Source: a virus
Length of the DNA: 64,000 nucleotides
Strand: one strand, 5' to 3'
Virus record (IMG/VR): IMGVR_UViG_3300025127_008281
Location: 1 to 64,000 of that record
Part shown: positions 272 to 49,394 of the stretch, piece after piece
How the letters are laid out: each line of letters begins with the position of its first letter
How positions within the stretch are numbered: position 1 is the first letter of the stretch
Notes under the pieces: model-generated
The model's input: the letters and a program-made list of their open reading frames with translations, nothing else
Databases searched by the model: none
What the model was told of the DNA's origin: nothing
Position numbers and translations under genes: made by a program

Positions 272-919
272 TTATCTAAATCTGTATGTTTCTATAGAGA
301 TAAATTCTTTGCACCATTCTTCTTTATTGTAAACCCAATCACCACCTATCATGGACGAATGATATTGATAATTCATCCACGCAACCAGATCTCCTGGATT
401 TTTCCATGGCATAAGTTTTTTTATGCCAAAGTTTTTAGCGTAATTGCTATTTTTTAGTTGTGGAATAACATCATCTCTCTCGATCATTAGTGGCTGATCC
501 TCTTTTGGTGGAGAGTCAAAGAATGCAGTTCCGGGTTTGCATCCAGCTTTCCATTGCAATGGAATCAAAAAAGTATATCCATTCCGATACTTTTTCCTAC
601 TTTCAAGTAGATGTTCAGAGGTTCTTACATCACTATGTGGTCCAAAAGGATAGTACAGATATCGTAGGCTTCCTTCGTGTATATAAAAGTCACCCATGTC
701 TGTTTTTAATTTTGCAATTAATTTGTGAATAGGATTTTTTTCGTATTCCAATCTTAGTGGTCGATCGGAGCAACCGTCCATTCCATAGATGGTGCAATGA
801 TCACTGTTGTCAATGACCGGTCCGCCAGTAAGTGTACCGCCTACTGCGGCATAAAAATTTTTAATCTCTGCCAGTAGTTCATTGTCAACGTATTTTTCTT
901 TATAGATGAGTTCGTTCAT
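272..919 (-). CDS. 2OG-Fe(II) oxygenase-like protein
   Basis: 215-aa soluble protein. Its centre has the iron-binding HxD motif in context GPHSDVR (about residues 94-100). A distal His in YQYHSSM near residue 188 and the pattern FLIPLQW...GTAFFDSP fit the double-stranded beta-helix of 2-oxoglutarate/Fe(II) dioxygenases. Such enzymes hydroxylate small molecules, proteins or nucleic acids using 2OG and O2; the substrate here is unknown. This is the first of five oxygenases of this type in the window. A late-type promoter lies 13 nt upstream, and the gene is divergent from the 1001-3030 pair. Confidence 0.65.
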   Translation of the reverse strand: MNELIYKEKYVDNELLAEIKNFYAAVGGTLTGGPVIDNSDHCTIYGMDGCSDRPLRLEYEKNPIHKLIAKLKTDMGDFYIHEGSLRYLYYPFGPHSDVRTSEHLLESRKKYRNGYTFLIPLQWKAGCKPGTAFFDSPPKEDQPLMIERDDVIPQLKNSNYAKNFGIKKLMPWKNPGDLVAWMNYQYHSSMIGGDWVYNKEEWCKEFISIETYRFR

Positions 920-3799: not shown

Positions 3800-4005
3800 T
3801 TTCTTTTTTCTCTTTGGAGCAAATATTCTGCAACACGATAAATCCTATGTAGATTTGTTACACTATCTTTCCAATGTTTTTCCATTAATGGTTGTGCCCG
3901 TCTTCGTATTGCTTTATTCCTTTTAGATTCTTTGACACCTTGCTCGAAAACTGCTCCACCCGAAGTTTTTGCTTCGATGTCAAATTCATTTAATTTACTA
4001 CTCAT
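3796..4005 (-). CDS. Hypothetical basic protein, 69 aa
   Basis: Small, strongly basic protein with a cluster of Arg and Lys (KESKRNKAIRRRAQ), so it may bind nucleic acid or ribosomes. It overlaps the ClpS stop codon as ATGA and should be co-expressed with ClpS. Family not recognised. Confidence 0.55.
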   Translation of the reverse strand: MSSKLNEFDIEAKTSGGAVFEQGVKESKRNKAIRRRAQPLMEKHWKDSVTNLHRIYRVAEYLLQREKRK

Positions 4006-4310
4006 TGTTTTTTTACTTTGACCTGTAAAGGAAAATTTTCTTGTCTTGCAAGTAAAGTGGTTTCTATTCCTTTCTGCTCTGCCACTTCGTGAACATAAGA
4101 GCCAACCACGCCCGAGCCCTGTTCGTGAATCCTTTTTGTAATTGCATCTGCCTGCTCTTGGTTTTTGCCAAATATCTGTTTTAGGACCCTAACCACGAAT
4201 TCCATTGATGTGATGTTGTCATTCAAAAATATAACGTCCCACAATCCAGGTTCTTCTAACTTAATTTTTTCTTTGGTAAGTGTTTTTATATCTGTTGTCA
4301 TTTCAATCAT
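4002..4310 (-). CDS. clpS: ClpS adaptor protein
   Basis: 102 aa. In the cell ClpS delivers N-degron substrates to the Clp unfoldase ClpA and restrains other ClpA substrates. The sequence shows the family core: VIFLNDN, then SMEFVVRVL with the gatekeeper Met, the helix RIHEQGSGVVG with the His that contacts the N-terminal residue, and HEVAEQK. The usual NDD is NDN here. No clpA is in the window, so the host unfoldase is the probable partner. A perfect -10 box ends 5 nt before this ATG, so the mRNA is probably leaderless; an alternative in-frame ATG lies at 4301. Confidence 0.88.
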   Translation of the reverse strand: MIEMTTDIKTLTKEKIKLEEPGLWDVIFLNDNITSMEFVVRVLKQIFGKNQEQADAITKRIHEQGSGVVGSYVHEVAEQKGIETTLLARQENFPLQVKVKKQ

Positions 4311-4315
4311 TCCTT

Positions 4316-4343
4316 ATTATAACATACATCAAATAAAAGTCAA
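4316..4343 (-). promoter_or_regulatory. Sigma70 promoter of clpS, predicted leaderless
   Basis: TTGACT (4338-4343), 16-bp spacer containing an extended -10 TG, and perfect TATAAT (4316-4321). The ATG at 4310 falls at the expected +1. Confidence 0.75.
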
Positions 4344-4383
4344 TTTGTGGAAGGGTGGCTGTAACCACCCTATCCATTATGCT

Positions 4384-4824
4384 TTACTTGATGTCGATAA
4401 GTTTTGCTTTCTTGTGTTCTGGAATGATTCTTTCCATGCTTACTTTAAGCAAACCATCCTTAAGTTCCGCACCCTTGACCTCTACATCGTTAGCGATGGT
4501 AAAAGACTTACTGAACATTCTCTTTGAAATGCCTCTGTGTATTACATTACCATCTTCGTCTTTAGTCTCTTCTTGTTTCTTAGATTTGACTGTAAGTAGA
4601 TTCTCTTTGTACTCTACTTCGATGTCTTTCTTGTTGAATCCTGCAAGTGCAAGTTCAACATCATAGGTGTTCTCACCAGTCTTTACTATGTTGTATGGTG
4701 GGAAATTGCCAACAGATCTTCCGAAGAAACTGTCGTCCATCATATGTTCAAAGTGATCGAACATATCATCGAACCCTACGGTTAGTGGTCTTAGGTTATT
4801 AAAAATAGATAGATTGTTTTTCAT
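4384..4824 (-). CDS. Small heat-shock protein Hsp20
   Basis: 146 aa from the ATG at 4824, chosen over an upstream in-frame start because AGGAGG sits 7 nt before it. The alpha-crystallin domain is evident (YDVELALAGFNKKDIEVEY, LTVKSKKQEE, FSKSFTIANDVEV, GLLKVSMERIIPE), with a short N-terminal arm and the IPE-type C-terminal segment. Hsp20 proteins are ATP-independent holdases for unfolding proteins and are a known gene type in marine T4-like phages. It lies between ClpS and bS21/ClpX but has its own strong promoter. Confidence 0.92.
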   Translation of the reverse strand: MKNNLSIFNNLRPLTVGFDDMFDHFEHMMDDSFFGRSVGNFPPYNIVKTGENTYDVELALAGFNKKDIEVEYKENLLTVKSKKQEETKDEDGNVIHRGISKRMFSKSFTIANDVEVKGAELKDGLLKVSMERIIPEHKKAKLIDIK

Positions 4825-4860
4825 GTGCTTTCCTCCTATTGTTAAGCGAGTTAATGTATC

Positions 4861-4885
4861 GAAGATCCTATCTATAGCAATCTTC
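4861..4885. promoter_or_regulatory. Inverted repeat in Hsp20 leader
   Basis: GAAGAT and ATCTTC (6-bp arms, 13-nt loop that itself contains CTAT/ATAG symmetry) lie in the roughly 70-nt leader between the promoter and the AGGAGG of the hsp20 gene. It could be an operator or an RNA element; this is inference. Confidence 0.35.
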
Positions 4886-4902
4886 AATGTTATTTATGCT
4901 AT

Positions 4903-4931
4903 ATTATAGCATATATATTGGAAAGTGTCAA
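4903..4931 (-). promoter_or_regulatory. Consensus sigma70 promoter of Hsp20 gene
   Basis: Perfect TTGACA (4926-4931) and TATAAT (4903-4908) with a 17-bp spacer carrying an extended -10 ATGC. It begins just after the bS21 stop codon. Confidence 0.8.
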
Positions 4932-5198
4932 CTAGTGCCGATTTGGCCTACCAAGGAAACGCTCATCATCTCGTTTGGATTGCAATTTGCGAATTACCAA
5001 TTTTCTTCTTTTACCAGTTTCTCTTTTGATTTCGGATGGCTTTCTGAAATATTGCCTATCCTTTAGCTCTTCAATGAATCGATCGTTTTTGATCCATTTC
5101 TTCATTTTACGGTATGCTCTCATGGCGTCCCCTCCTTCAGGTACGTCCACGTAGTATCCGCTAAATCCCGTTGGTCTTTTTGTTTTGTGTTTTCGCAT
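4932..5198 (-). CDS. rpsU: Ribosomal protein bS21 homologue
   Basis: 88 aa from ATG 5198 (an overlapping longer reading inside clpX is less likely). The core VPEGGDAMRAYRKMKKWIKN followed by RQYFRKPSEIKRETGKRRK matches bS21: short N-terminal beta, helix with alternating Arg/Lys, the conserved KPS turn, and a basic tail. Bacterial bS21 sits near the anti-Shine-Dalgarno end of 16S rRNA and affects initiation. It overlaps the end of clpX by 38 nt and so is probably translated from the same mRNA. Phage bS21 homologues are known in some marine and large phages. Confidence 0.82.
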   Translation of the reverse strand: MRKHKTKRPTGFSGYYVDVPEGGDAMRAYRKMKKWIKNDRFIEELKDRQYFRKPSEIKRETGKRRKLVIRKLQSKRDDERFLGRPNRH

Positions 5199-6420
5199 CA
5201 GTCTTCTTAAACAATAACACAGGGTCAGCTCCATTGTCAACCACATCTGCTGTTATTTGAATCTTATTTACACCTCTTGCTCTCATTTCAGAGGCATCAA
5301 ACTGATAAGGCAACACAATTGAATCTACTATATTTTTAAGTCCCCTGGCATTTGTGCCAAGTGCTTTGGCTTTTTTTGCTATGGCAATCTTTGCATCAGC
5401 TGTGAATTCTATTTTAATGTCATCCAATCCGAAAAGATACTGTGTTTGTTTTATTAATGCATTTTTAGGTTCAGTCAATATTTTTACCAGTTGCTCTTCA
5501 CTTAAACTACTAACACTAGTGATCATCGAAAATCGTCCTACAAATTCTGGAATGAGTCCATATTTGATTAGATCCTCAGGCTTGACCTCAAGTAGATAAT
5601 TTTTATCTTCGGACATGTGTAAAGAAGCTCCAAATCCTATTCCACCGGACTTCCTACTGGAAATCTGCTTTTCAAGTTCGGTAAAAGCACCACCAACTAT
5701 GAACAAGATATTTTTAGTATCCACAACGACCATTTGTTGATCTGGGTGTTTACGTCCACCATGTGGAGGCACTCTGCATTGCGTACCCTCAATGATTTTG
5801 AGCAGTCCTTGTTGTACACCCTCTCCAGAAACATCTCTCGTAATAGAAGAATTTTCACCTTTGCGAGATATTTTGTCTATTTCATCTATAAAAATTATTC
5901 CACGTTCGGTTTTTTCAATATCACCGTTTGCCGCGGCATAAAGTTTTTGCACTACGTTCTCAATGTCATCACCTACGTAACCTGATTCAGTCAATGTAGT
6001 TGCATCTGCCATGGCAAAAGGCACCTCCAAATATTTCGCAATTGTTCTAGCCATTAGAGTTTTACCTGCACCTGTGGCTCCTAATAACAAGACGTTTGAT
6101 TTGTCTAATTCAAAGTCTGTTGGTGGCTGTGTAATTCTCTTGTAGTGATTGGCAACTGCAACACTCATTACCGTCTTGGCCTGTTCTTGCCCAATGACAT
6201 ATTGATCTAAATGTTCCTTAATGGTAACAGGGTTAAGTATTTCTTTGTCACCAGAATACAACTTTTCCTTACGACTTTTTACAATATCTTCATCTAATAT
6301 TTCAACACAAAGTTTTACACATTCGTTACAAATGGCCACCTTTGTGGCGCCCACGATCATTTTTGTGACATCTTTTCTGGACTTACTGCAAAAAGAACAT
6401 GTCATATTTTCTTCAGGCAT
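5161..6420 (-). CDS. clpX: ClpX AAA+ unfoldase
   Basis: 419 aa, about the length of bacterial ClpX. All functional elements are visible: N-terminal zinc domain with Cys 8, 11, 31 and 34; Walker A GATGAGKT (114-121); Walker B IIFIDEID; pore loop GYVG; RKH loop GGRKHPDQQ; the ClpP-docking IGF loop in GGIGFGASL; and sensor-2 GARGLKNI. It should therefore bind host ClpP and process substrates such as ssrA-tagged proteins ending LAA. No clpP is in the window. Its start overlaps the preceding stop as TAATG, so it is coupled to the 121-aa gene upstream. Confidence 0.96.
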
Positions 6421-6785
6421 TATACAAGAGTTTCCTTTATTTTGGTGAATACCTGTTCAACACTTCGCTCGCCATTCACTTCATACGTTTTGTCATCACT
6501 TAAAAGTTCTTCTACGAAAGGAGGTAGATCCTTTTTATCAGCCACAATAAATTTGGATTTCATAGTGGCCTGTTTGATCCATGGGCCGTCGCCGCTGGAT
6601 TCATATATGAACACAGTGATGTTATCGTTTGGAAATAATTTGTTTAGTTGTGTTGCAAATTGATTTTTTTGTTCTTCCTTTAGGTTGATTAGACAGAAAC
6701 TTATTTTGTGTGGATTCAACATCGATGGTGGAGTAACCACTGTGATCGTTCCTAGCGTATCAAAAACTTTCAATCCCATGGACAT
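6420..6785 (-). CDS. Hypothetical protein coupled to ClpX, 121 aa
   Basis: Predicted alternating alpha/beta protein with no signal peptide. AAGGA precedes the start by 9 nt; a second ATG two codons in is possible. Its TAA overlaps the clpX ATG. Family not recognised; position suggests co-regulation with ClpX and bS21. Confidence 0.6.
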   Translation of the reverse strand: MSMGLKVFDTLGTITVVTPPSMLNPHKISFCLINLKEEQKNQFATQLNKLFPNDNITVFIYESSGDGPWIKQATMKSKFIVADKKDLPPFVEELLSDDKTYEVNGERSVEQVFTKIKETLV

Positions 6786-16277: not shown

Positions 16278-16995
16278 TGGCTATATTAAAGTTTTTGTTT
16301 TTTTCTACAAAGTCACTGGTTCCTGTGATTTTAAGTATAGATCTTGCCGAATAACCAGCGTTGGCCGTAGAGTGTGGTACATTTCGCCAATCAAATTTTA
16401 TAACATCACCTTTTTTCCAGTTACACCAATGATCTGTTCCAAACTGCCACATCCATCCAGGTTGCCAATCTGTCAATGCTACAAATATACGATGTAGGTT
16501 TTGCATACCTTTTGGTTGTTTTAGTTTTTTATCTAAGGGTAGGGCACTCAATTTTTCAATGTCCTTGTACCAGCCGTTGAGTGAGTCGCAATGGAGATTT
16601 TTCATACTGCCGGGCTCTTGGACATTAATTGCCACTTTGTAATCCGTGAAACCCAATGCCTCGGCTATCCTATTTGCCAACTCATCTCCACGATATTCCT
16701 TATAACCATAGTCGAAGTTATTGGCCTTTAGTAGTGCTATTTCACTTATGTCTACGTTCTGGTTACCTTCTAGTTTTTCAGAGGCCTTGAGGGATAAATG
16801 GTCAGTGCTGAAACTCCAGTCGCCACCAACCTCACCTATTTTTTCAAAGGTGTAATCGCCAGGCTTGTAGTTGGACAGAGCCAACATGCACTCTGTCCAG
16901 TTGAATGCAGGGTCTTTCAACAACTGCAACCAATCTCCTACGGTTTTGACTTGCTCGTATTTTTTCTTATAATCTATACGATCTCCATGCGACAT
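16273..16995 (-). CDS. 2OG-Fe(II) oxygenase-like protein C
   Basis: 240 aa, paralogue of protein A (14689-15429). It has LHCDSLNGW for the first metal site, RIFVALTDWQPGWMW, NWKKGDVIKFDWRNVPHSTANAG and ILKITGTSD. Its ATG overlaps the TctC stop as TAATG, tying this enzyme to the transporter translationally. Confidence 0.65.
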   Translation of the reverse strand: MSHGDRIDYKKKYEQVKTVGDWLQLLKDPAFNWTECMLALSNYKPGDYTFEKIGEVGGDWSFSTDHLSLKASEKLEGNQNVDISEIALLKANNFDYGYKEYRGDELANRIAEALGFTDYKVAINVQEPGSMKNLHCDSLNGWYKDIEKLSALPLDKKLKQPKGMQNLHRIFVALTDWQPGWMWQFGTDHWCNWKKGDVIKFDWRNVPHSTANAGYSARSILKITGTSDFVEKNKNFNIAI

Positions 16996-17864
16996 TACTC
17001 TTGCAAGTTCTTAACACTTGTCTCCCACTGCGTGGTGATTTGACTAGGTGTAAGATCCCACATTACATTCAGTACTTTGCCGCCTTGAGTATATTCGTAC
17101 ATGGCACTTGCTGAATCCATGTGTACGTCTTTTATTCTTGACCTCAAGGTTGCAACTTCGTCAGCGGTCATGTTTAACGCCAACCAAACTGCATCATATC
17201 CAGCAATCAAAAGTGTGTTGCTTGGATCCATTGTTGCCAACGGTATCAGGTCCGAATCTTTATTAGCACTATACTCATAGAAACAACTTCCACCGTTTTT
17301 GATTATATCTCTGCCGTGTTTAATCGACACCAATGCGTAATCAATTTCGCCGTTATATAATCCAGTTTTAGTTGCCCCTGATCCATCATAAGCAATAGGT
17401 TTTACTTTTGCTCCAAATGATTCCTTGAGTGCCAACACAGCTCTGCTGAAAGGTTTGACTGGTGTGGTATGCCCGACTGTGTGAGTGTTTTTCATGATCG
17501 AATCAGCATCGTAGTTTATCGAACACAAGCTCATCACTGTACTGTCATATCTAACAACCTGCTCTGGTTTCACTTCAAATGTTGCACAGCCACTTCCATC
17601 CCTGCCTACTGCTTCAAAGTCATTAGCCCATGGCATAAGCACAGGACCCTTAATACTTTTCAGCATCTGCACAGCGGTGCAGTAATCGCCAGGAATTTTA
17701 AGGTCTATGTTGTAGTATTTTTGCAGATCTTTAGACACAGCCGTCATCTGCATGGCAAACGAACCTGTCTTTGATCCTGCATTTAATATTGTCAGTGACT
17801 CTTTGGCAAATGAGTTTGACACGAAGAGACAAGAAAATATTAATGTTAGTATTATTTTTCTCAT
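16995..17864 (-). CDS. TctC-like periplasmic solute-binding protein
   Basis: 289 aa with a signal peptide (IILTLIFSCLFVSNSFAK). The rest fits a TctC/TTT solute-binding protein: LTILNAGSKTGSF at the start, IKPIAYDGSGATKTGLYNGEIDYALVS in the middle, and GYDAVWLALNMTADEVATLR near the end. TctC proteins bind carboxylates in the periplasm and hand them to TctA. It lies 98 nt after tctA and is coupled to an oxygenase gene. No tctB is present, as also at the second locus. Confidence 0.75.
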   Translation of the reverse strand: MRKIILTLIFSCLFVSNSFAKESLTILNAGSKTGSFAMQMTAVSKDLQKYYNIDLKIPGDYCTAVQMLKSIKGPVLMPWANDFEAVGRDGSGCATFEVKPEQVVRYDSTVMSLCSINYDADSIMKNTHTVGHTTPVKPFSRAVLALKESFGAKVKPIAYDGSGATKTGLYNGEIDYALVSIKHGRDIIKNGGSCFYEYSANKDSDLIPLATMDPSNTLLIAGYDAVWLALNMTADEVATLRSRIKDVHMDSASAMYEYTQGGKVLNVMWDLTPSQITTQWETSVKNLQE

Positions 17865-17962: not shown

Positions 17963-19288
17963 TTACCAATATAAACTGATCAGTCTGTTTGCGGCATCGA
18001 TCATTCTATCATGCACTAGAAAAGCAAATATAAGAGGCATGGTATCTAACTTGCGTACAATAAAAGCCAAAGGTAAAAGTGCAAGTGCCACTAAGACATA
18101 ATATAAGGTTTGATAGTTGAGATATCCTACCCAAACAATAACTCCAACAAAGCCAATCAATATTGAAGTGTACATTAATTTAATGTTCAGTTGAAATAGT
18201 TTTATAATGTGTTTGGCTAGAGGCCATGCAAGGCAAAGGCCCACTATGTTCAAGAATACGAGGCTAACACCTACCACAACAAAGATATCATTGAATGTTG
18301 TCGTGTCAAGCCTGAATCCTTTTGATTCGACAAGGCCTAATACTAATGCCTCACTGCCGGCTAATGGTATTCCCAAAAGCAACAATGGAAGTAGGTGACT
18401 GAATGCGCCGGCATTGTTTGCGGTCTCTGATGCAACTATTCTTTGCACAGGCGTGGTTTCCCTGCTTTTAGCATCCACCCATGCAAGTTGGCTAGACATT
18501 GTTGTGGTAAGCCCCGGAGCAAGTCCTCCCATAAATCCAAGCATACTATACCAACTGCTGGTTACCCAATTGAAATTGACCTTACTAGGTTTGTAATCTA
18601 ATGTTTTGTAATTCACTTTGGTTGAATAATTTTTTAAAACTTCTGGTAATCCTAATAGAATTATGACAACTACTATCATGGGAAATCCTTGATACAAAAG
18701 ATGACTGTCGAATGTTAAAATTTTGGTCTGTGTCCATTTTTCATATCCTATCAATCCTATTGCAAAACCCGTTATGATAAGCAATATGTTTACCCAGTAT
18801 TTGTTTTCTTTGAATATAAAAACCATGGCACCAAGCACAATACAGTATAAAGAAAACTGCACGAGAGTGTTGAAGAAATGCACGGTATATATCAACCAAT
18901 CCAGTAACAACCAAGTTAATGCCAAAACTATTACGCCGCCAAATGTGGATCCAATTGCACTTCCTACTATCGCCTGATATATTTGTTGCGGACTCTTCAA
19001 ATTCCTTGATTCAATAACGGCAGGTACGGACGAAGACTCGCCAGGTATTCCAAATGTAATTGCAGGTATACTCCCAATGTATTGTGATATTGTTGTAAGT
19101 GCTGTGTATAGAACAATTATTTGCAAAGGTTCTAGATGAATAAGATATGGGAAAATGATCAACAATGCGGCAAAGTTTCCGATGCCTGGTATACATCCAC
19201 TGATCAAGCCAGCCAGTATTCCAATTATTGCAGGGTTGATTAGTTCCATCATAAATGCCAGTGTAGCATAGAAATCAGCAGGAGTCAA
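17963..19288 (-). CDS. TctA-like carboxylate transporter, large membrane subunit
   Basis: 441 aa, roughly 10-12 hydrophobic segments. Signature loops of TctA are seen: ISGCIPGIGNFAALL near the start and the repeated half-site FGIPGESSSVPAV. The start is TTG at 19288 preceded by AGGGA; the first ATG would be at 19252. TctA is the membrane channel of tripartite tricarboxylate transporters, which import citrate or other carboxylates in a Na+ or H+ coupled way. Substrate not determinable. First gene of a run with TctC and three 2OG oxygenases. Confidence 0.85.
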   Translation of the reverse strand: MTPADFYATLAFMMELINPAIIGILAGLISGCIPGIGNFAALLIIFPYLIHLEPLQIIVLYTALTTISQYIGSIPAITFGIPGESSSVPAVIESRNLKSPQQIYQAIVGSAIGSTFGGVIVLALTWLLLDWLIYTVHFFNTLVQFSLYCIVLGAMVFIFKENKYWVNILLIITGFAIGLIGYEKWTQTKILTFDSHLLYQGFPMIVVVIILLGLPEVLKNYSTKVNYKTLDYKPSKVNFNWVTSSWYSMLGFMGGLAPGLTTTMSSQLAWVDAKSRETTPVQRIVASETANNAGAFSHLLPLLLLGIPLAGSEALVLGLVESKGFRLDTTTFNDIFVVVGVSLVFLNIVGLCLAWPLAKHIIKLFQLNIKLMYTSILIGFVGVIVWVGYLNYQTLYYVLVALALLPLAFIVRKLDTMPLIFAFLVHDRMIDAANRLISLYW

Positions 19289-23053: not shown

Positions 23054-23256
23054 TATCTTCCTAGCTTTTTCTTTCTACCTAATGGTAATAGTTGGTCTTT
23101 GACGTAGACCTCCCCATTCTTCGTCGTCCACTCAATAGTTACCATCTTGGCCTTAGAACTGCCCTGAAATGACTTCACGGCCTTCTTGAAAGAAAGAGCT
23201 TCAACCTCTTTGGTCTCTGTCCCGTCATTAAATTTGAAAATTCTATTTTTTGGCAT
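23053..23256 (-). CDS. Small basic protein, 67 aa
   Basis: Start set at MPKNRIFKF (23256); an upstream extension is antisense to the tmRNA and is rejected. Beta-type N-terminus and very basic C-terminus (GRKKKLGR). Function unknown; coupled to the next gene. Confidence 0.55.
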   Translation of the reverse strand: MPKNRIFKFNDGTETKEVEALSFKKAVKSFQGSSKAKMVTIEWTTKNGEVYVKDQLLPLGRKKKLGR

Positions 23257-23299
23257 ATATTTTAATTTAGCACAAGATTGACAAAAGGTCAAGTCTATG

Positions 23300-23610
23300 C
23301 TTAAATATGACGCAGACGTTGATACATTTGGAATAAACGTTGCGGACGTCGGGGCAGTACCGACCACCTCCACCAATTTATTACTTGGTGGCTTATGTAA
23401 TCCCTTCCGGGGGTGAACTAGGATCGACGGGCGTGTAAAGAAATGTGGAGTTTGTCCAGTTGGAACGAGGTAACGGCCAGTTTTTAAATGCAAACAAAAG
23501 AGCATTAGGATTTGCTGACCTAACGGTTGGTATATCCGGATTGAGATTAGCGGCGTAATAACCAATGATCTCAGGGGCGGCCCCTGCCTTGCAACAGAAG
23601 TGGGGCATAT
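23300..23610 (+). ncRNA. ssrA: tmRNA (transfer-messenger RNA), circularly permuted
   Basis: Two-piece permuted tmRNA; outer ends approximate. The acceptor piece comes first and ends CACCTCC-ACCA at 23375, preceded by a T-arm-like hairpin (23348-23364). After a 33-nt spacer the coding piece starts GGGGGTG (23409), which pairs with CACCTCC (one G-U). It continues into GGATCGACGGG, nearly the universal tmRNA 5' signature. The tag frame starts GCA AAC at 23490 as in E. coli, runs 22 codons and ends ...LRLAA with TAA TAA at 23556. AAATGT (23441-23446) can pair with ACATTT in the acceptor piece, as helix P2. The order is that of alphaproteobacteria. It stalls-rescues ribosomes and tags products for ClpXP. 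The T-loop is not canonical TTCRA. Confidence 0.88.
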
Positions 23611-23618
23611 AACTAAAT

Positions 23619-24863
23619 TTAACTGATAGTGCTGTTTGATTCGTTTTGATCTAATTCGAGCGACACTATTTCTCTGTCTCTCTCATCGAGATTATTAAGC
23701 AGTCTACGACTTTGGTTTATGATACTGCCTCTTGTGCTGAGGCCCAGTTGTTCACAGCATTTGGTGATAATACTTTCAACAAACAAAAAATCAAAACCTT
23801 TTGTGTCGATCCTGTCATCCTTTTTGGCTTTTCCAGCCACCGCATCCAAGTCGGTGTGATCTAAAACATCGGGCAGGCCCCTACTGGCCAAAACTGCATC
23901 GATGACGCTTGACTTATCAGAGTCAGACTCCGTTGTATATATTGGATTAAGTTGTTCTTGATTGGCTTCATAGTCATTGAAATAATTTTGCCAATTTTCA
24001 TTTTGAGCCACCCTCGCCATTAATTGTCTAAGAGCGGGATCCTCTGCCAGGGCGGTGAATGCCTGGTTGTCTGCTAAATCTTCAGTAAAAGTTCTCAAGT
24101 TTGATATGTTTGAACTTTCAAGATTCTTTTGTGTTACTATACTCTCCCTATTATTGACAAGTTGTGTTCTCTTTGTGAGGTAAGGTTCGGATGCCAGGGC
24201 ATTATTAAAATTTGTCTGTGCTGTGGCTAAAGTTGTGGCTCTGTTATCCAAACTGGTTTGAAAATCTGTTGAGTCACCCGTCAATCCAACCACAAAGTTT
24301 TTAAGGTCATCTATGGCTGATTGATATGTGGTATCTGTGGCCAAGCCAGCATTATTGATAAATGTTATTGCCTCTTGTAGACTTATGAAAACAGGTTGAC
24401 TGCTATCTTCTGTATCTAAGAATATATTATTGAGAGACCCTAGGTGATCATTTACAGATCTGTTTTTCTCACCAGGTGTTACTCCAAGCAATTCTGGAAT
24501 CAAAGATTGCACACTTTGTACAAGCTGTAGAATCTCCAAGAAAGAACCTTGTCCTTGATCTTCCGGGGTGCCAGTGATGTCTGGGTTCCCTGGGATAATA
24601 GAACCGTCAAGTATAGTGTTGGTGTGCCTGACCAATTCTCCTAGATATCTACCAATGTTTAAGTGTGGTACATTATCTATGTCATCTCTAAGATCGTTTT
24701 TTTGTGAACTCGTTAATACAGTGCTATCTTCAATGGCAGTATCTAGTTGGATTGACTTTGCCACCCAACCTATTTTTAAATTATTAATTGCATTCTCTAA
24801 ACCTTGATTAGAAAAATTTGGAGTAGACTCCGATAGTGATTTGAGTCCTTTATTGACAGCCAT
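23619..24863 (-). CDS. Probable virion protein coupled to PAAR, 414 aa
   Basis: Asn/Ser/Thr/Asp-rich and predicted largely helical, with repeated heptad-like stretches. No signal peptide. Its ATG overlaps the PAAR stop (TAATG), so it is likely a baseplate or tail component made with the spike tip. Family not recognised. Confidence 0.6.
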   Translation of the reverse strand: MAVNKGLKSLSESTPNFSNQGLENAINNLKIGWVAKSIQLDTAIEDSTVLTSSQKNDLRDDIDNVPHLNIGRYLGELVRHTNTILDGSIIPGNPDITGTPEDQGQGSFLEILQLVQSVQSLIPELLGVTPGEKNRSVNDHLGSLNNIFLDTEDSSQPVFISLQEAITFINNAGLATDTTYQSAIDDLKNFVVGLTGDSTDFQTSLDNRATTLATAQTNFNNALASEPYLTKRTQLVNNRESIVTQKNLESSNISNLRTFTEDLADNQAFTALAEDPALRQLMARVAQNENWQNYFNDYEANQEQLNPIYTTESDSDKSSVIDAVLASRGLPDVLDHTDLDAVAGKAKKDDRIDTKGFDFLFVESIITKCCEQLGLSTRGSIINQSRRLLNNLDERDREIVSLELDQNESNSTIS

Positions 24864-25219: not shown

Positions 25220-26473
25220 CTATGATTTCTTATCACGCAGATGTATGGCCTCTGGTATCAATCGTGGCTTTTCAAGCCAACCTACCACAGGTGCCAGTAT
25301 TAGGAAGTATGCAAACCAGTAGCCTGTCCCGATCCTACCCAAAAGTATCCAAAGCCCTTCGGCCGGCATGGCACCAACATACATCAGTAAGAAGAAGTCT
25401 CCTACTAGGAACCAAGTGAATTGTTTCCAGATTGGCCGATATATAGAAGATTTAATTTTCGATGTATCCAGCCATGGTAAAAGTCCCATCACTCCGATTG
25501 CGGACACCATAGCTATCACTCCCCCAAGTTTATCTGGGATAGCTCTTAGGACAGCGTACCAAGGAAGGAAGTACCATTCAGGAACTATGTGAGCTGGTGT
25601 GACCAACGGATTGGCTTCGATGTAGTTGTCTGGATGACCTAGTATGTTTGGAAAGTTAAACAAGAAAAACATGAAAATCAAAATAAAAACTAAAAATGCG
25701 TAGAGATCTTTAACGGTAACATAAGGATGGAACGATACGGTATCTCTTGTATCCTTTGGCTCTACACCGGTTGGATTATTCGATCCTGTCATGTGTAAAG
25801 CAATTACATGGAATACTACGACCGCCACAATGATGAATGCGATTAACCAGTGTAACACAAAAGCCCTGTTTAAGAAAGCGTCGCCAACTGCGTAGTCGCC
25901 CCATAGTAAAGTCACAATAGAATCTCCCACAAGGGGTATGGCACTAAACAGACTGGTTATTACGGTTGCTCCCCAGTAACTCATCTGCCCCCATGGTAGA
26001 ACATATCCTAGGAAAGCAGTGGCCATCATTAGGAAGTAGATTATTATTCCAAATATCCACATCAGCTGTCTTGGTTCTTTGTATGAGCCAAAGTATAGTC
26101 CGCGGAACATATGAATGTACACTGCAATGAAAAAGAATGAGGCCAGGTTCATGTGGGCGTACCTCAACAGCCAACCTCCATTTACATCTCGCATTATCTT
26201 TTCAACGCTATCGAATGCTTCGGCCACACTTGGTTTGTAGTGCATACCTAATACCAATCCTGTGGCTATGAGTCCTAACAAACAAAATGTAAGTATGGCT
26301 CCGAAACTCCAAAAATAGTTTAGATTTTTTGGCACCTGGAAGTCAAGATATTCATGCTTGAACATTCTAAAGATGGGTAGTCGATTGTCCAACCAACCTA
26401 AGGCCCCTGTGAAAGGAGAAGTGTTGTCTTTTACCTTATTGGTATGAACAGGTTTGTAATCCTTATTATCCAT
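25220..26473 (-). CDS. petB: Cytochrome b of bc1 complex
   Basis: 417 aa, full length. Eight or so transmembrane helices. The heme-ligand His pairs are present: helix B RYAHMNLAS...VYIHMFRGLY and helix D LHWLIAF...VFHVIALH. The Qo-site PEWYF motif is intact (VPEWYFLPWYAVLRAIPDK). In the cell cytochrome b carries quinol oxidation in complex III, with the Rieske protein and cytochrome c1, whose genes are not here. The protein would have to assemble with host partners. It sits between PAAR and nrdB on the same strand. An apparently functional respiratory subunit in a phage is unusual. Confidence 0.95.
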   Translation of the reverse strand: MDNKDYKPVHTNKVKDNTSPFTGALGWLDNRLPIFRMFKHEYLDFQVPKNLNYFWSFGAILTFCLLGLIATGLVLGMHYKPSVAEAFDSVEKIMRDVNGGWLLRYAHMNLASFFFIAVYIHMFRGLYFGSYKEPRQLMWIFGIIIYFLMMATAFLGYVLPWGQMSYWGATVITSLFSAIPLVGDSIVTLLWGDYAVGDAFLNRAFVLHWLIAFIIVAVVVFHVIALHMTGSNNPTGVEPKDTRDTVSFHPYVTVKDLYAFLVFILIFMFFLFNFPNILGHPDNYIEANPLVTPAHIVPEWYFLPWYAVLRAIPDKLGGVIAMVSAIGVMGLLPWLDTSKIKSSIYRPIWKQFTWFLVGDFFLLMYVGAMPAEGLWILLGRIGTGYWFAYFLILAPVVGWLEKPRLIPEAIHLRDKKS

Positions 26474-37015: not shown

Positions 37016-37855
37016 TTACTTCCCCGATAACTTGCCGTAGATCCTGTTTGAAGCTTCGAACACTTCTCTGCTTTCTCTTTGTTCTCTGCCTTCTGGCTCT
37101 GTGCCACCTGCTTCGGCATCAGAGGCTCCAAACTCATCGTCCTCTTCTCCACCTTCCGAGTCCAGTGAGTCTAGATCTGTATCCATGTTCATCGTGTCAT
37201 CGGCGCCCATAGGGTCTGAAGCAACTTCTTCTCCGGTCAAAATTCTTACACCGTTGTCTAGTTCTTGCCTAGTTGTCGTTAAAGTCGCCTCCGCCTGTTC
37301 AATCGCTGGTTGGATTTTTTGCATGAAAGCATCTGCCTTGTCTGCTCCCATTTCGTCTCTGATTCTGTCTGCCAATTCTAGCACACCTTCTGTTTTCATT
37401 GTTGCTAGATCTTCCAAGTACCCTGTGACTTTGTCCATCATGTCCTTGGCCGCTAATATTAATTCTGATTGTTCTTCAACACCCTCTGTCTTCATGGCCT
37501 GTGCCGCCGCTTTCCTATCTGCTGGACTCACTGCTTGTCCTTTTGATAGTTTGTCTTTGATTTCGCCTGTGGCCTTGCCAATAATAGAACTTGCCATGTT
37601 GCCACCGTATTCGTTGATTGCTTGATTCACAATGTCAAGCATCATTTGGCTTTTTTGATAGTCATTGTTTTTAAGCTCTTCACCAAAATGTGTGTTTTGT
37701 GTGATGTTATGAATTTTTGTTCTTATGTGATTTGCTGTGTCTTCCAATTCTTCTTTTGTAAACTTGCTTAGGTCCATGGTTTGATTGAATCTGGATTCAA
37801 ATTCTGCTAAAAGACTTTCGGTTGTAATAGGTTTTGTTAATTCTAAGCTGTTCAT
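37016..37855 (-). CDS. Helical acidic protein, 279 aa (virion or scaffold candidate)
   Basis: Almost entirely helical with coiled-coil-like stretches and a very acidic Asp/Glu/Gly-rich segment from about residue 225. That composition is common in scaffolding or inner-capsid proteins, but no homologue was recognised. Under a late promoter. Confidence 0.5.
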   Translation of the reverse strand: MNSLELTKPITTESLLAEFESRFNQTMDLSKFTKEELEDTANHIRTKIHNITQNTHFGEELKNNDYQKSQMMLDIVNQAINEYGGNMASSIIGKATGEIKDKLSKGQAVSPADRKAAAQAMKTEGVEEQSELILAAKDMMDKVTGYLEDLATMKTEGVLELADRIRDEMGADKADAFMQKIQPAIEQAEATLTTTRQELDNGVRILTGEEVASDPMGADDTMNMDTDLDSLDSEGGEEDDEFGASDAEAGGTEPEGREQRESREVFEASNRIYGKLSGK

Positions 37856-43061: not shown

Positions 43062-44114
43062 GGTAAAATGCAACGTAATTTTGTTCTGACAGATTTGATG
43101 AAAACTGGTAAACATCAAGATATAGAGCAGTTTATCAGTTCACATAGTCTACCCGATCAATCATTCAGTTTAGAATCGCAATACTATCGATTACACAATT
43201 ACGATTTGGACAGCTATGACAGGCGTTTTGTAATAATTGACGTGCGTCACGACAACAACCGGCTGAAAGGCAGTATAGAGTTTAAAGATGAACTGGAAAG
43301 GAGATGTAAACTTCTGCATAGCCAAGGTTTTGTTTTCATATCAGCCACGCCATGGGAGTCAGCAGATAATATTTCAAAAAGTGAATTGTATCCCGAAGTC
43401 AGCACACAGCATATCATATGGTCAGGTGGCGTGTCGTGGTTTTGGTCGTACATGTATCACAAACACAAAGATACGGAATTTGTTTTTGATCACAATAAAA
43501 AGAATTATGATTTCTTATATCTCAATAAAGGGGTTAGAGAACATAGGACAAATTTGTTTAACAAATTATCTTCAACAGATTTGTTACAAAAAAGTCTTTA
43601 TAGCTTTTGGCCAAACAAAAAATTAGCACAAGACTACGAATTGCCATGGGCACCGGACTATCCTTTTTATGGCATGGATCAGGACATATATGAAAAACCA
43701 TATAATGAAACTGCTTTCAATATTGTATCAGAGTCCAACGACAACGACCACGATGTGTTTATGACAGAGAAAATTTGGAAGCCTATTATTGCACAACAAA
43801 TATTTGTTGTTCACGGTAATCATTTATACCTGCAAAAACTACGTGAAATGGGTTTCAAAACATTTGGCCATTACTTTGATGAATCCTATGACCTAGAAAA
43901 AGATTCAATTAAAAAAATTGATGCCATTCATAAACTATGTAAAGATCTAATGAACAAAAATTGGAAAGATCTATATCTGCAAACTATTAAACTACGTCAG
44001 CACAACCATGATGTGTTTTTCAATAAGGAAAGATTAAGTGAACAGGTGAATAAGACTATCAATTTATTTCTTGAATTTGCTGATAGCGGTCAAATTACGT
44101 CTACTGAAGCCTAA
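43059..44114 (+). CDS. Glycosyltransferase-like paralogue A
   Basis: 351 aa from ATG 43059 (or 43068). The C-terminal half has the block shared by four genes here: DVFMTEKIWKPIIAQQIFVVHGN, LREMGFKTFGHYF, DESYDLEKDSIKKI. TEKxxxP(I/L) with a following VxxG resembles the nucleotide-sugar binding end of fucosyltransferase-like (GT10-type) enzymes, here inferred. Its 3' end overlaps the convergent gene by 51 nt. Confidence 0.6.
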   Translation: MGKMQRNFVLTDLMKTGKHQDIEQFISSHSLPDQSFSLESQYYRLHNYDLDSYDRRFVIIDVRHDNNRLKGSIEFKDELERRCKLLHSQGFVFISATPWESADNISKSELYPEVSTQHIIWSGGVSWFWSYMYHKHKDTEFVFDHNKKNYDFLYLNKGVREHRTNLFNKLSSTDLLQKSLYSFWPNKKLAQDYELPWAPDYPFYGMDQDIYEKPYNETAFNIVSESNDNDHDVFMTEKIWKPIIAQQIFVVHGNHLYLQKLREMGFKTFGHYFDESYDLEKDSIKKIDAIHKLCKDLMNKNWKDLYLQTIKLRQHNHDVFFNKERLSEQVNKTINLFLEFADSGQITSTEA

Positions 44115-45278
44115 CCTATCTACAAGTTTGACAGCGTTGCCTGTCTTGTCTACAGCAACAAATCCTTCTGGTTCTGTGACTTCCAATCCATTCTCGGTCT
44201 GTTGAAATGATCCTATTGCCATCGCTTGGTTCATTTTTTTCAGCACAAACATTTTCATCCTTTGCACCTGTTTGTAAAAAGATAGCATGTTCTGTAATGG
44301 GGCCTTTAGTTTGTTTAGGAATCGTGGCATCTGTTTGATTTTATCTTGTCTCAGGTCCAGAGCCCTTTGTGCTTTTAGACCAGATATTTGTTGTTGCATT
44401 CGATCAATATAAAATTTTCTAAAGCCTTGTAGAAATTGTGTGCTATTCTCAGGCAACTGGCCTTCTTTGACCATGGAATTAATATACATCTGAAAGAATG
44501 GTACAAAATCTTGATTGGCACCAAATAGGTTAGATAGGTTACGTGGCACCCTTGACAATAAACTTTCCAACTTGTCTATCTCAGCCAAAAATATTTTTGT
44601 TTCGTCATCTGTGAATTTTGCACTGCCAGACACATCTTTATAACTTGCGTTATCAAAGAACACTGAACTATTTTTTGAAAATTCTTCAATATTGGCCCCT
44701 GCACTGGCATTCATGTCAGCCAGTGTTTCGCCAACATAGGTAGTATGGAATATGATACCAACTTTTGCCACATCGATTTGTTTTCCCAATTCACTTTGCT
44801 CAGGTACTGCATAGGTAATGGTGTTTGGATTGAATGTTAAATGTGGCTTGCCATCTATGTTTTTTCTAGTTATGTCTTCGTCTGTGAATAGTAGGTCTCC
44901 CTGATACACACCATTCATGTTGATCTTTTTTAAATGCACCAAACATTTAAGCAGTTTTTGTCCGAGATCATCAGTGCCATGATTTTTTGCGATATCTCGT
45001 TTGGTGTAGTTTATTTTTGGACTTTGTGCGAACACCGACTTGGTGCCAACAAAAAATCTATCATTGTCAGGATTTACGCCACAGACAACAGCAGGTGCAC
45101 CGTCCCACTTCACACTCACCTTTACTGCTTCTGAACTACTGCCTTTCAAGGTAAGCAAAAGTCCTCTAAAATATTCTACAACAGCCTTGCCGCCCTCAAA
45201 GCCATCTGTTATGATAATGTCTTCTATGTGTTCTAGGTGTGTCCTTTTGAACTCTGTGAGAACATCTTCAATTAACAT
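44064..45278 (-). CDS. Ligase-like (DUF6267-type) protein, 404 aa
   Basis: VKVSVKWDGAPAVVCG near residue 50 matches motif I (KxDG) of the ligase/nucleotidyltransferase superfamily, and FFVGTKSVF could be motif III. Later motifs are not obvious. The family is common and unannotated in T4-like marine phages (I recall DUF6267). Possible RNA or DNA end-joining or nucleotidyl transfer; inference. C-terminal residues 300-404 are helical. Confidence 0.5.
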   Translation of the reverse strand: MLIEDVLTEFKRTHLEHIEDIIITDGFEGGKAVVEYFRGLLLTLKGSSSEAVKVSVKWDGAPAVVCGVNPDNDRFFVGTKSVFAQSPKINYTKRDIAKNHGTDDLGQKLLKCLVHLKKINMNGVYQGDLLFTDEDITRKNIDGKPHLTFNPNTITYAVPEQSELGKQIDVAKVGIIFHTTYVGETLADMNASAGANIEEFSKNSSVFFDNASYKDVSGSAKFTDDETKIFLAEIDKLESLLSRVPRNLSNLFGANQDFVPFFQMYINSMVKEGQLPENSTQFLQGFRKFYIDRMQQQISGLKAQRALDLRQDKIKQMPRFLNKLKAPLQNMLSFYKQVQRMKMFVLKKMNQAMAIGSFQQTENGLEVTEPEGFVAVDKTGNAVKLVDRLGFSRRNLTAISKFKK

Positions 45279-46337: not shown

Positions 46338-46919
46338 TTATTGATAAACAAAGACTCTGACATTGTTTTCTTTGTAATCATGTATGGGTGTGTCTTTAGG
46401 ATACTTAATTGCCAGTGTTTTACAAAGTTCTTCATTATTGTACAATTCTACTATTCTTTTTTTATTATTCTGATAGAAAGTTTTTATATCAAAGTTTTGT
46501 TTTTTTATGTGTTCCCACATTCTAGTCCTTGTCCTATAGTATTGATAGTTGGGATATGTGATATTGAATGCTCCTGCTTTGGTCCACCATTCAATACATC
46601 CACCATTGGATCTCAAACACATCACTATTGGATATCCTTTAGTCTTCAGTTCCTCGAGTTCATGAGCGAAAGTGTGACATTTGATTATCCTTCTGCCTAC
46701 ACCACTGAATGGCCCGTCCCAATCTATTGGAGTGAATTCCATTCCCGGATCCCAATATGCTCCAAAGTGCATCACTTTCTTTTCTCCAGGGGTATCAGTC
46801 TCTACGGAGTATGTTCGTTCTTCGGTATAGTCGGTGTGATCAATATCTTCGCTCCAATAGATATTTTTACACACACTGCTCCATTTAGATCCTGGTGCCC
46901 CTGTAAAAAGTATGTACAT
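46338..46919 (-). CDS. P-loop sulfotransferase-like protein, 193 aa
   Basis: Begins MYILFTGAPGSKWSSV, a P-loop-type GxPGSxxS as in sulfotransferase 5'-PSB loops, then RRIIKCHTFAHEL and YPIVMCLRS. Trp-rich middle. Activity unproven. Its ATG overlaps the end of TctC 2, so it is in the same transcript. Confidence 0.5.
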   Translation of the reverse strand: MYILFTGAPGSKWSSVCKNIYWSEDIDHTDYTEERTYSVETDTPGEKKVMHFGAYWDPGMEFTPIDWDGPFSGVGRRIIKCHTFAHELEELKTKGYPIVMCLRSNGGCIEWWTKAGAFNITYPNYQYYRTRTRMWEHIKKQNFDIKTFYQNNKKRIVELYNNEELCKTLAIKYPKDTPIHDYKENNVRVFVYQ

Positions 46920-47965
46920 TATTTCGTAAGATCTTCCTTGTACACTGTGTTGTAACCTAACTGTTTGCTTTTGAAATCAGCCAAAGTTTGAAGTGCTTCA
47001 GGAGTAATAAAAGACTTCAAAGTTTTCACTGCATTATCCCCTTCTGCTCCTGTTCTCCACTCGTATTTGCCGACCTTCTTTTCAATTGCGGCAACTGACT
47101 CGGGATCTTTTATCATCTTGTCCAAAGCCTTAACAAGTTTTTCTTTGTTTGGATTTCCTTTGTTGACCCAAAAGGCTTTTTGCAAAGCATCTCTCCAACT
47201 CTTCACAAGTTTATATGCATCGTAGAAGTCTCCACTCGGAGCGGTCAACCACATCTCTTCATACAACGCCTCGAATGTTGGCTCTTCAAAGTTAGGATCT
47301 GCATTGTGTTCACCTGTTGCTACATCCAGCAAACCATGATGGAACCAAGTGTAGGCGTCACCTTTTTGGATTACCGGCAACACATGCTTTTTGTATGCCG
47401 CAGGATTCTCTCTGGTAGCGTTCAAGTCACCTCTGATGAATGCCAAACGTCTTTCAGATCCTTTCATGCCTTTCACCCAAACAATCTTCTCCTCAAAAGT
47501 TTTAATTGGATCATTGTTAGGTCCTGCCAATAACATGGTTATAGCCATCACTTCAGGAGTCATTCCTGATCCTGATGGAAACTGTATTGGACCATTCAAC
47601 ACATCTGCGTTTTTCCTTGCACCTACAATAATATTTAAATTCATCTGTCCAATGGATTCCCAATCTAAGTAATTGTAGTCGACAGGCTCAACAAGATATG
47701 ATATACCGTTACCCCCATGTGATACCAAAATAGTTTTATTATCAAATCGCAATTCATTTTGGAATTGATTAGGGCCAAGTTGATCCCTTGCACCAGGCTT
47801 GTAGATCAAGTTGATCTTTTCGCCTAGATGTTTCTCCCATTCTGCCACAACTATCTGTGCCCACACAGAAGTTCCACCAGATGGTTTTTGTGGCACGATT
47901 AAATTGTAATCTGCCATGGCTGTTGTTGTCATTAAAAACAAAGCCATTATTGTTTTTTTAAGCAT
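46919..47965 (-). CDS. TctC-like periplasmic solute-binding protein 2
   Basis: 348 aa with signal peptide (KKTIMALFLMTTTAMA). The mature protein has the TctC outline: DYNLIVPQKPSGGTSVWAQIV, LGEKINLIYKPGAR, NFEEPTFEALYEEMW and DPESVAAIEKK near the end. It overlaps its TctA by 8 nt. It is diverged from the TctC at 16995, so the two systems probably carry different carboxylates. Confidence 0.8.
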   Translation of the reverse strand: MLKKTIMALFLMTTTAMADYNLIVPQKPSGGTSVWAQIVVAEWEKHLGEKINLIYKPGARDQLGPNQFQNELRFDNKTILVSHGGNGISYLVEPVDYNYLDWESIGQMNLNIIVGARKNADVLNGPIQFPSGSGMTPEVMAITMLLAGPNNDPIKTFEEKIVWVKGMKGSERRLAFIRGDLNATRENPAAYKKHVLPVIQKGDAYTWFHHGLLDVATGEHNADPNFEEPTFEALYEEMWLTAPSGDFYDAYKLVKSWRDALQKAFWVNKGNPNKEKLVKALDKMIKDPESVAAIEKKVGKYEWRTGAEGDNAVKTLKSFITPEALQTLADFKSKQLGYNTVYKEDLTK

Positions 47966-49394
47966 AATCTAATTTGCTCCTTTTCGTTATTCCCCAATAC
48001 AGTAAAAGTATAACACAAATAATTATAAAGATAAAGATTGGTCTTGAAATTAAATCATTTACAGTATGTAGAGATGTTAGTTGATAAGTGAGATTATATA
48101 TCCTGTCACTCAACAGGTACCCTATCAGTAGTGCTGGCCTACTGACTTGGAATTTTTTACATAGCAGTCCCAATGTTGAGAATGCAATTAGCACCGCAAG
48201 GTCTTCCCATCCGCCACTATATTGTAGAGTTGCCCAAACAATAACGGCAAGTATGAAAGGAAAGTAGTAAACATATGGAATACGTGTTACCCAACCTGCG
48301 AAATATGCCAGTCCATAACATATGAAAGCAGTGATCATTGTGCCTAATAGGAATGCAAATGTCATGCTGTCAAATAATTTGTCATCGTAAAATGTGTCTG
48401 GAGATCCTAGGTCAATTCCTAGATATAAAAATAAGCCCATCAGAATTGCGGCGAATGGTGCTCCAGGAATCCCAAACAACACAGTTGGAATAAATGATGA
48501 GGCTTTCTGAGCATTGTTGGCGCCTTCTGCCCCCACTATACCTCTAACGTTTCCGTTACCAAACTTTTCTTTAGGATTTGCGGCGACCGTGGCGCCGTAA
48601 GCCAACCAGTCTGCCATGGCTCCACCAAGCCCAGGCAAAAGTCCTATGAATGAGCCAATTGCTCCACCTCGTATGCTATCTTTCCAACAGTTAATGGAAT
48701 CTTGGAAACCTTGTTTGACATCTAACCAACTGCCATGTACCGCCTTTACAGAAGTGGTTGTTCTCCTTTTGAACCAACCATCCCATAGTTCTGGTATGGC
48801 GAAAAGTCCTGCTACAAAAGGCAATATTTGCACTCCGTCTTCAAGATATCTCCAACCCATTGTGAAACGGGGAACATTATTAACATCAACCCCAACAAGT
48901 CCTATTGTTATTCCCAAAATGATAGCAAGTGTGCTTCTAACATATTTTCTTGTGGATACAAAGCCAACCGTCACAAAGGCAAGTAATACCAATGCCCACA
49001 GTTCAGGAATGCCCATGAACATGACAACCTGTGTGTACCATGGAAGAAATAAAAAAGTCAGCGATCCCCAGAACAAACCATTTGCAGTGCTTGATGTAAT
49101 GGCGGCCGAAAGTGCTCTTGTTGCCTCTCCATTCTTGGCCATAGGGAATCCGTCCACCATTGTTGCCGCCGCAGAGTTGGCTCCGGGTATGCCCAAAAGC
49201 ACACCACTGAATGAATCACCGGTTGTTGAGGATGCCACAACTGCCACACAGAAGATTACACCCAAGTAAGGATCTCCCACAAAGTAGGGCATGAATCCAA
49301 ATAGTGTGATTAATCCTGTTGTTGCTCCTGCGGCTGGTATTAGGCCAATGATCAAGCCATAAACAATACCTGCCATTAAGATAGCAAGTTCCAT
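47958..49394 (-). CDS. TctA-like carboxylate transporter 2, large membrane subunit
   Basis: 478 aa with about 11-12 hydrophobic helices. The TctA signature LLGIPGANSAAATMVDGFPMAKNGEATRAL is complete, and GLIPAAGATTGLITLFGFMPY matches the first signature loop. FIGLLPGLGGAMADWLAYG is the second half-repeat. Na+/H+-coupled uptake of carboxylates is the family role. Separate locus from the 17963 TctA; both lack tctB. Confidence 0.88.
   Translation of the reverse strand: MELAILMAGIVYGLIIGLIPAAGATTGLITLFGFMPYFVGDPYLGVIFCVAVVASSTTGDSFSGVLLGIPGANSAAATMVDGFPMAKNGEATRALSAAITSSTANGLFWGSLTFLFLPWYTQVVMFMGIPELWALVLLAFVTVGFVSTRKYVRSTLAIILGITIGLVGVDVNNVPRFTMGWRYLEDGVQILPFVAGLFAIPELWDGWFKRRTTTSVKAVHGSWLDVKQGFQDSINCWKDSIRGGAIGSFIGLLPGLGGAMADWLAYGATVAANPKEKFGNGNVRGIVGAEGANNAQKASSFIPTVLFGIPGAPFAAILMGLFLYLGIDLGSPDTFYDDKLFDSMTFAFLLGTMITAFICYGLAYFAGWVTRIPYVYYFPFILAVIVWATLQYSGGWEDLAVLIAFSTLGLLCKKFQVSRPALLIGYLLSDRIYNLTYQLTSLHTVNDLISRPIFIFIIICVILLLYWGITKRSKLDYA

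Follow-up and report, generated by a model that had tools for sequence, protein, structure and literature searches.

A permuted tmRNA gene with a conserved long tag in a family of phage contigs, nearly all of the long ones with clpX and clpS

Introduction

Genes for tmRNA have been recorded in phages several times. The paper describing phage Melnitz screened 18,146 phage genomes and found 402 with a tmRNA; 53 of the 133 unique structures were two-piece tmRNAs, and 50 of these were marine or aquatic (PMC9004378). The tmRNA database holds 79 phage sequences (PMC11915505), and a tmRNA is present in Bacillus phage G (PMC4131195). Phage tmRNAs have been argued to be possible relics of integration into ssrA (PMC9004378), and a tRNA-like fragment of DS6A that has no tag was reported to inhibit rescue (PMC11915505, PMC4131195). 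Although lists of phage tmRNAs have existed for years, no purpose for them has been put to the test, and the family described here offers a handle on it. An initial annotation of this DNA, made from the letters alone, had regarded a permuted tmRNA gene beside clpX and clpS in one phage as, to its knowledge, undescribed; with 53 two-piece cases in phages already published (PMC9004378) and both a tmRNA and a ClpX in phage G, its main novelty claim fails. Here we describe the gene, its long tag and the genes that accompany it.

Results

Architecture of the permuted tmRNA gene

The window, by which we mean the whole 64,000-nucleotide stretch that was analysed, makes up most of a 66,996-base IMG/VR virus record (IMGVR_UViG_3300025127_008281). 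One tmRNA gene was called in it by ARAGORN, at 23280-23649 on the plus strand, in the permuted class (tmRNA*) and with the tag ANKRALGFADLTVGISGLRLAA followed by two stops. Two models of Rfam 15 match the same place: RF01849 (alpha_tmRNA) at 23256-23609 with 99.6 bits (gathering 50, E 5.5e-26) and RF04321 (tmRNA_permuted) at 23315-23523 with 97.7 bits against a gathering value of 47. The parts of the gene are as follows.

23278-23306, plus strand: promoter-like element, TTGACA (23278-23283), 17 bases, TTAAAT (23301-23306) (motif in relatives)
23312-23607, plus strand: permuted tmRNA gene (ARAGORN, Rfam)
23312-23375, plus strand: acceptor piece (Rfam, pairing; 5' end placed from the promoter and P2a)
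23312-23317, 23324-23329 and 23348-23364, plus strand: P2a strand, P2b strand and T arm of the acceptor piece
23376-23408, plus strand: intervening segment, expected to be removed (sequence)
23409-23607, plus strand: coding piece, also holding the pseudoknot region, tag frame and 3' stem (ARAGORN, Rfam, pairing; 3' end approximate)
23409-23415, 23441-23446 and 23450-23455, plus strand: acceptor strand, P2b strand and P2a strand of the coding piece
23490-23561, plus strand: tag reading frame ANKRALGFADLTVGISGLRLAA with stops TAATAA (ARAGORN, codon analysis)
23580-23606, plus strand: 3' terminal stem, GCCCC (23580-23584) and GGGGC (23602-23606), flanking GCAACAGAA (23591-23599)

The CCA-bearing acceptor half is encoded 5' of the coding half, which is the arrangement of a permuted two-piece tmRNA. 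The acceptor strands CACCTCC (23365-23371) and GGGGGTG (23409-23415) are complementary, at exactly the positions that the initial annotation had given, and the first is followed by A-CCA at 23372-23375. The gene also contains GGATCGACGGG, the resume codon in GCA AAC at 23490 and the tag stops TAATAA at 23556-23561, all of which had been noticed before. The GGCAGTA T loop and GCAACAGAA are features of the alphaproteobacterial-type alpha_tmRNA (RF01849), a subtype that fits the window gene and is too narrow for the whole tag family, where other members carry other T loops. The earlier reading of a phage-borne permuted tmRNA is thus upheld by ARAGORN and both Rfam models, the gene being of the alphaproteobacterial type and located in a virus record, and the locus at 23312-23607 is confirmed as a circularly permuted tmRNA gene.

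A family of long tags under purifying selection

To collect relatives, IMG/VR was searched for patterns taken from the tRNA-like domain, from the tag and from the intervening segment, and 52 further contigs were found to carry a permuted tmRNA with the same kind of tag. The tags comprise 34 distinct DNA sequences and 29 distinct peptides and follow the pattern A[NKT]x[KR]A[LF]GFAD[LF]TV-linker-[LM]RLAA, with 22-25 residues. Some tags differ in length but stay in frame, with 23 or 25 residues (AKQKALGFADLTVLAQPEMRLAA in L125, ANKRALGFADLTLLLPSKTELRLAA in L118). The initial annotation had called the 22-residue tag long, and this holds: the 30 tmRNA tags read from SAR11-family genomes, which were reached by way of a Pelagibacter MAG, have 9 residues without exception (for example ANDKFALAA and ANESYALAA).

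Over 32 distinct 22-codon tags, pN/pS is 0.06 in the ALGFADLTV block, 0.00 in RLAA, 0.72 in the linker and 0.52 in the first four codons, against 0.82 and 1.89 in the other two frames of the tag DNA; the pairs compared are related by descent, so that these ratios are descriptive. The low values in ALGFADLTV and RLAA compared with the other frames indicate that the tag is read and selected as protein. ALGFADLTV and RLAA are under purifying selection, and the linker between them drifts. The gene therefore combines a resume codon with a short frame that ends in a hydrophobic Ala-Ala sequence and is selected as protein, as a tmRNA does.

Other permuted tmRNAs came to light in the same material. 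Four viral contigs (L014, L015, L022 and L084) have permuted tmRNAs with other predicted tags of 29 residues (AKKSTTFASILPVKVERVSLVQEALAASA, AKASTGEVTVSAKNLKFRTLAAKGQSLAV), and viruses may have long tags more often. A Pelagibacter MAG contig (L216, about 480-720, minus strand) carries another permuted tmRNA with a different tag, which by eye is AAIRLLATETVATEESVYAMAA, with 22 residues; ARAGORN gives another frame there.

Covarying helices and a conserved promoter element

The helices of the tRNA-like domain were compared over distinct relatives with a control in which strands were swapped between members. P2b is paired in 98% versus 42% in the control, P2a in 99% versus 72%, and the 5-bp T stem in 100% versus 61%, and changes on both sides are seen at most positions of these three helices among distinct family members. 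Of the checks that had been named for the gene, an Rfam alpha_tmRNA match and pairing conserved in related phages have both come out in its favour. The acceptor stem hardly varies, with three types in the family. Because the helices covary, the acceptor stem, the T arm and P2 can be said to form a tRNA-like domain that joins both pieces. The 3' stem around GCAACAGAA has 13 different stem sequences in the family; these were picked by the best pairing in each member and therefore serve as an illustration, not a test. Single-sequence folding without pseudoknots gave a fold energy weakly better than that of shuffles (z -2.0).

In the precursor, the intervening segment can form a hairpin with the CCA end (CCACCAA/TTGGTGG). 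Many relatives keep this pairing, one of them (L039) with a two-sided change, and unpaired variants occur too. With a pairing of 0.88 versus 0.83 in the control, the hairpin has weak support.

Directly upstream of the gene, the best-scoring site has TTGACA at the same place in 38 of 39 distinct relatives, and the complete 12/12 match to the sigma-70 consensus (TTGACA-17-TATAAT) is present in 11. The element in the window predicts a transcript start near 23313, the first base of P2. A generic promoter scan, which applies its own rules, did not list the TTGACA site of the window.

Probable exchange of the tRNA-like domain

Five kinds of T loop are found in the tRNA-like domains that carry the same tag: GGCAGTA (as in SAR11), TTCRANT, TGCAATT/TGCAAAT and a TCGAT type that is shortened. 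Together with the T loop the D region varies: TTC loops go with TGG or AGG, and GGCAGTA goes with TAG or CAG. For example, members L132 and L146 share the pseudoknot segment and differ in T loop and D region; L132 and L136 share T loop and D region and differ in the pseudoknot segment. We read this pattern as probable exchange of tRNA-like domains by recombination. One tag on several T-loop types with matching D regions is a natural experiment on exchangeable tmRNA parts.

The long tag in bacterial assemblies

A pattern search with the ALGFADLTV block over 84,980 species genomes gave seven matches. One of them (L194) duplicates a viral member of the family (L010), the two being one and the same contig of 46,675 bases. 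Another (L197), 10.7 kb long, belongs to a Pelagibacter MAG and bears a tmRNA of the phage type, and the remaining five have no tmRNA call. By this search the long tag is absent from recognisable bacterial chromosomes among these genomes. In the MAG MED657, two separate contigs each carry a long-tag tmRNA, and there is a further tmRNA whose tag is of the ordinary kind, ANDNEMALAA, with 10 residues (by eye). The tRNA-like domain is up to 85% identical to SAR11 tmRNAs, but 83-85% is also reached by other viral-contig permuted tmRNAs, so no host can be assigned from this likeness.

A clpX-clpS block on the same contig

An operon-like block at 4002-6785 on the minus strand holds the genes for a small protein without family, ClpX, bS21, Hsp20 and ClpS.

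4002-4310, minus strand: clpS, 102 aa (PF02617, 86.5 bits)
4384-4887, minus strand: Hsp20 chaperone (PF00011, 63.9 bits)
4932-5246, minus strand: homologue of ribosomal protein bS21, its frame overlapping the end of clpX (PF01165, 31.9 bits, cut-off 27)
5161-6420, minus strand: clpX, 419 aa (TIGR00382 score above the cut-off; motifs: zinc finger, GYVG pore loop, IGF loop)
6420-6785, minus strand: 121-aa protein without family, overlapping the start of clpX

The encoded ClpX has a C4 zinc finger, an AAA+ core and the IGF loop, and scores above the TIGR00382 cut-off, as expected of a ClpX. The IGF loop of ClpX docks ClpP. The initial annotation had placed the tmRNA beside clpX and clpS; the genes do share a contig, but they lie 17-19 kb from the tmRNA and on the opposite strand. 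The order of the block is kept in the clpX neighbourhoods read (L218-L226), with DnaK added in L218 and L219. In most relatives read, a protein containing (T/V)VTPPS is encoded upstream of clpX, and we suggest that the 121-aa protein may belong to the tag pathway.

Among 46 contigs, clpX is present in 14 and clpS in 12; twelve contigs reach 45 kb or more, and 11 of these carry both. The twelfth (L225) has neither and has a ClpP gene near one end of the contig, at 1136-1681. The co-occurrence of tag and clpX may reflect the shared descent of one phage lineage. SmpB was not found in the 46 phage records; ClpP was not found in the window's own record and is present in only one of the 46; an SspB-type adaptor was not found in 18 phage records. 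SmpB is present in 15 of 21 SAR11-family genomes sampled.

Other genes on the contig

A full-length cytochrome b of the bc1 type (417 aa) is encoded at 25220-26473 on the minus strand. A search of 45 related viral contigs found intact copies in 7, which makes 8 of 46 when the window is counted, and in the phage collection cytochrome b matched a single Helicobacter record. That a phage should carry a respiratory-chain gene is worth a study of its own. Two TctA tricarboxylate-transporter membrane proteins are encoded at 17963-19288 and 47958-49394 (both minus strand), each adjoining the gene of a likely exported protein with no Pfam match (16995-17864 and 46919-47965). Two further genes lie at 37016-37855 and 44064-45278 (both minus strand): one is of virion type and weakly matches the jumbo phages Munch and Phosso, and the other is nearest to HTVC008M and cyanophages. 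Most other structural-looking genes of the window have no PHROG.

Discussion

We consider that the gene probably encodes a working two-piece tmRNA of the phage, whose tagged products would go to ClpXP with the phage's own ClpX. The tmRNA would be transcribed from its own promoter of host type, and host tRNA-processing enzymes would cut the precursor into the acceptor piece and the coding piece, which would stay joined by pairing in the acceptor stem and in P2. With the help of the host's AlaRS and SmpB the tmRNA would then be loaded onto ribosomes stalled during infection, translation would resume at GCA, and the 22-residue tag would be added. Its RLAA end is a ClpX-type degron, so that the products are expected to reach a ClpXP in which ClpX is the phage's and ClpP the host's. 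The host would have to supply SmpB, and also ClpP, because they were not found in the phage records (one record with ClpP apart). On this reading the tmRNA would belong to a translation and proteostasis kit with bS21, ClpX, ClpS, Hsp20 and, in some relatives, DnaK.

The tag itself raises the tentative possibility of a two-part signal, in which RLAA addresses ClpX and ALGFADLTV addresses a phage-specific adaptor or the phage ClpX, so that products are diverted from host adaptors. Two conserved blocks around a drifting linker of variable length are consistent with it, as are the 9-residue SAR11 tags without the block and the phage clpX and clpS that accompany the tag in nearly all of the long contigs. 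Against it, no candidate partner emerged and the 18 phage records yielded no SspB-type adaptor; the conserved block could also serve the RNA or the ribosome instead of a protein partner. That ALGFADLTV makes an adaptor or ClpX contact is our guess. As a related proposal, which we think less likely than not, the host tag may have been replaced by a two-part phage tag on several tRNA-like domains, coupled to the phage ClpX/ClpS/bS21 operon. If this were true, the phage would decide the destination of rescued polypeptides and would own a trans-translation and proteolysis pathway with ALGFADLTV as its recognition element.

Inhibition of rescue by the tag-less DS6A fragment (PMC11915505, PMC4131195) offers a precedent for a different role, in which the phage tmRNA would compete with the host tmRNA for SmpB or stalled ribosomes. 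We find this improbable here, as such a competitor has no need for a tag frame with strong purifying selection and intact stops. The likeness of the tRNA-like domain to SAR11 tmRNAs, together with the argument that phage tmRNAs can be ssrA-integration relics (PMC9004378), would suit a passenger gene taken from a host and functionless in the phage; the compensatory changes in all tested helices, the protein-level selection on the tag, the conserved promoter and the occurrence of the tag, which recurs in over 50 contigs but was found in no recognisable bacterial chromosome, make this very improbable. A misfiling of bacterial DNA under viruses, as the host-like genes nearby (cytochrome b, TctA) and two bacterial MAGs containing contigs with the long tag might suggest for the window, is scarcely credible given the window's PHROG matches (exonuclease, tail spike, virion; phrog_455 nearest HTVC008M), the recurrence of the tag in more than 50 viral contigs and the separate tmRNA with an ordinary tag in MED657.

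Comparison with described systems

Under the reading of a working phage tmRNA that we prefer, what a phage gains from the gene becomes a direct question: does the phage tag send proteins to the phage ClpX? In the literature collection searched there was no publication with the tag sequence and none joining a phage tmRNA with ClpX and ClpS, and a tmRNA family with a bacteria-like body and a conserved tag of over twice the length of the sampled SAR11 tags is apparently undescribed. In the phage collection, the 22-residue tag had no tblastn match at E 10, and the tag DNA had only 31-base matches of 87%, partial and at chance level. The whole gene had no blastn match there, a null result that says little because blastn also linked the HTVC008M tmRNA to no other phage.

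The Pelagibacteraceae (SAR11) tmRNAs are the closest in their body, with a tRNA-like domain up to 85% identical and the same kind of T loop, but their short tags do not contain ALGFADLTV. Melnitz, a Methylophilales phage, and the pelagimyophages share a permuted tmRNA related to those of alphaproteobacteria in a marine phage, and one protein of the window is nearest to HTVC008M (41%) and Melnitz (39%). In contrast, the tag of the pelagimyophage HTVC008M is ANFNEYALAA, with 10 residues, and the ssrA of Melnitz is accompanied by a glutamine riboswitch, an element that was looked for here and not found. Mycobacteriophages (Bxz1, Wildcat and others) likewise carry tmRNA genes in their genomes (PMC4131195), but their hosts are actinobacterial, and the DS6A fragment has a tRNA-like domain but no tag frame. 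Bacillus phage G, with a tmRNA and a ClpX homologue (47% identity), is a precedent for the two in one phage; its host is of another phylum. Compared with these systems, the phages described here keep a bacterial tRNA-like body and maintain a two-block tag of their own, together with their own ClpX, ClpS and ribosomal S21.
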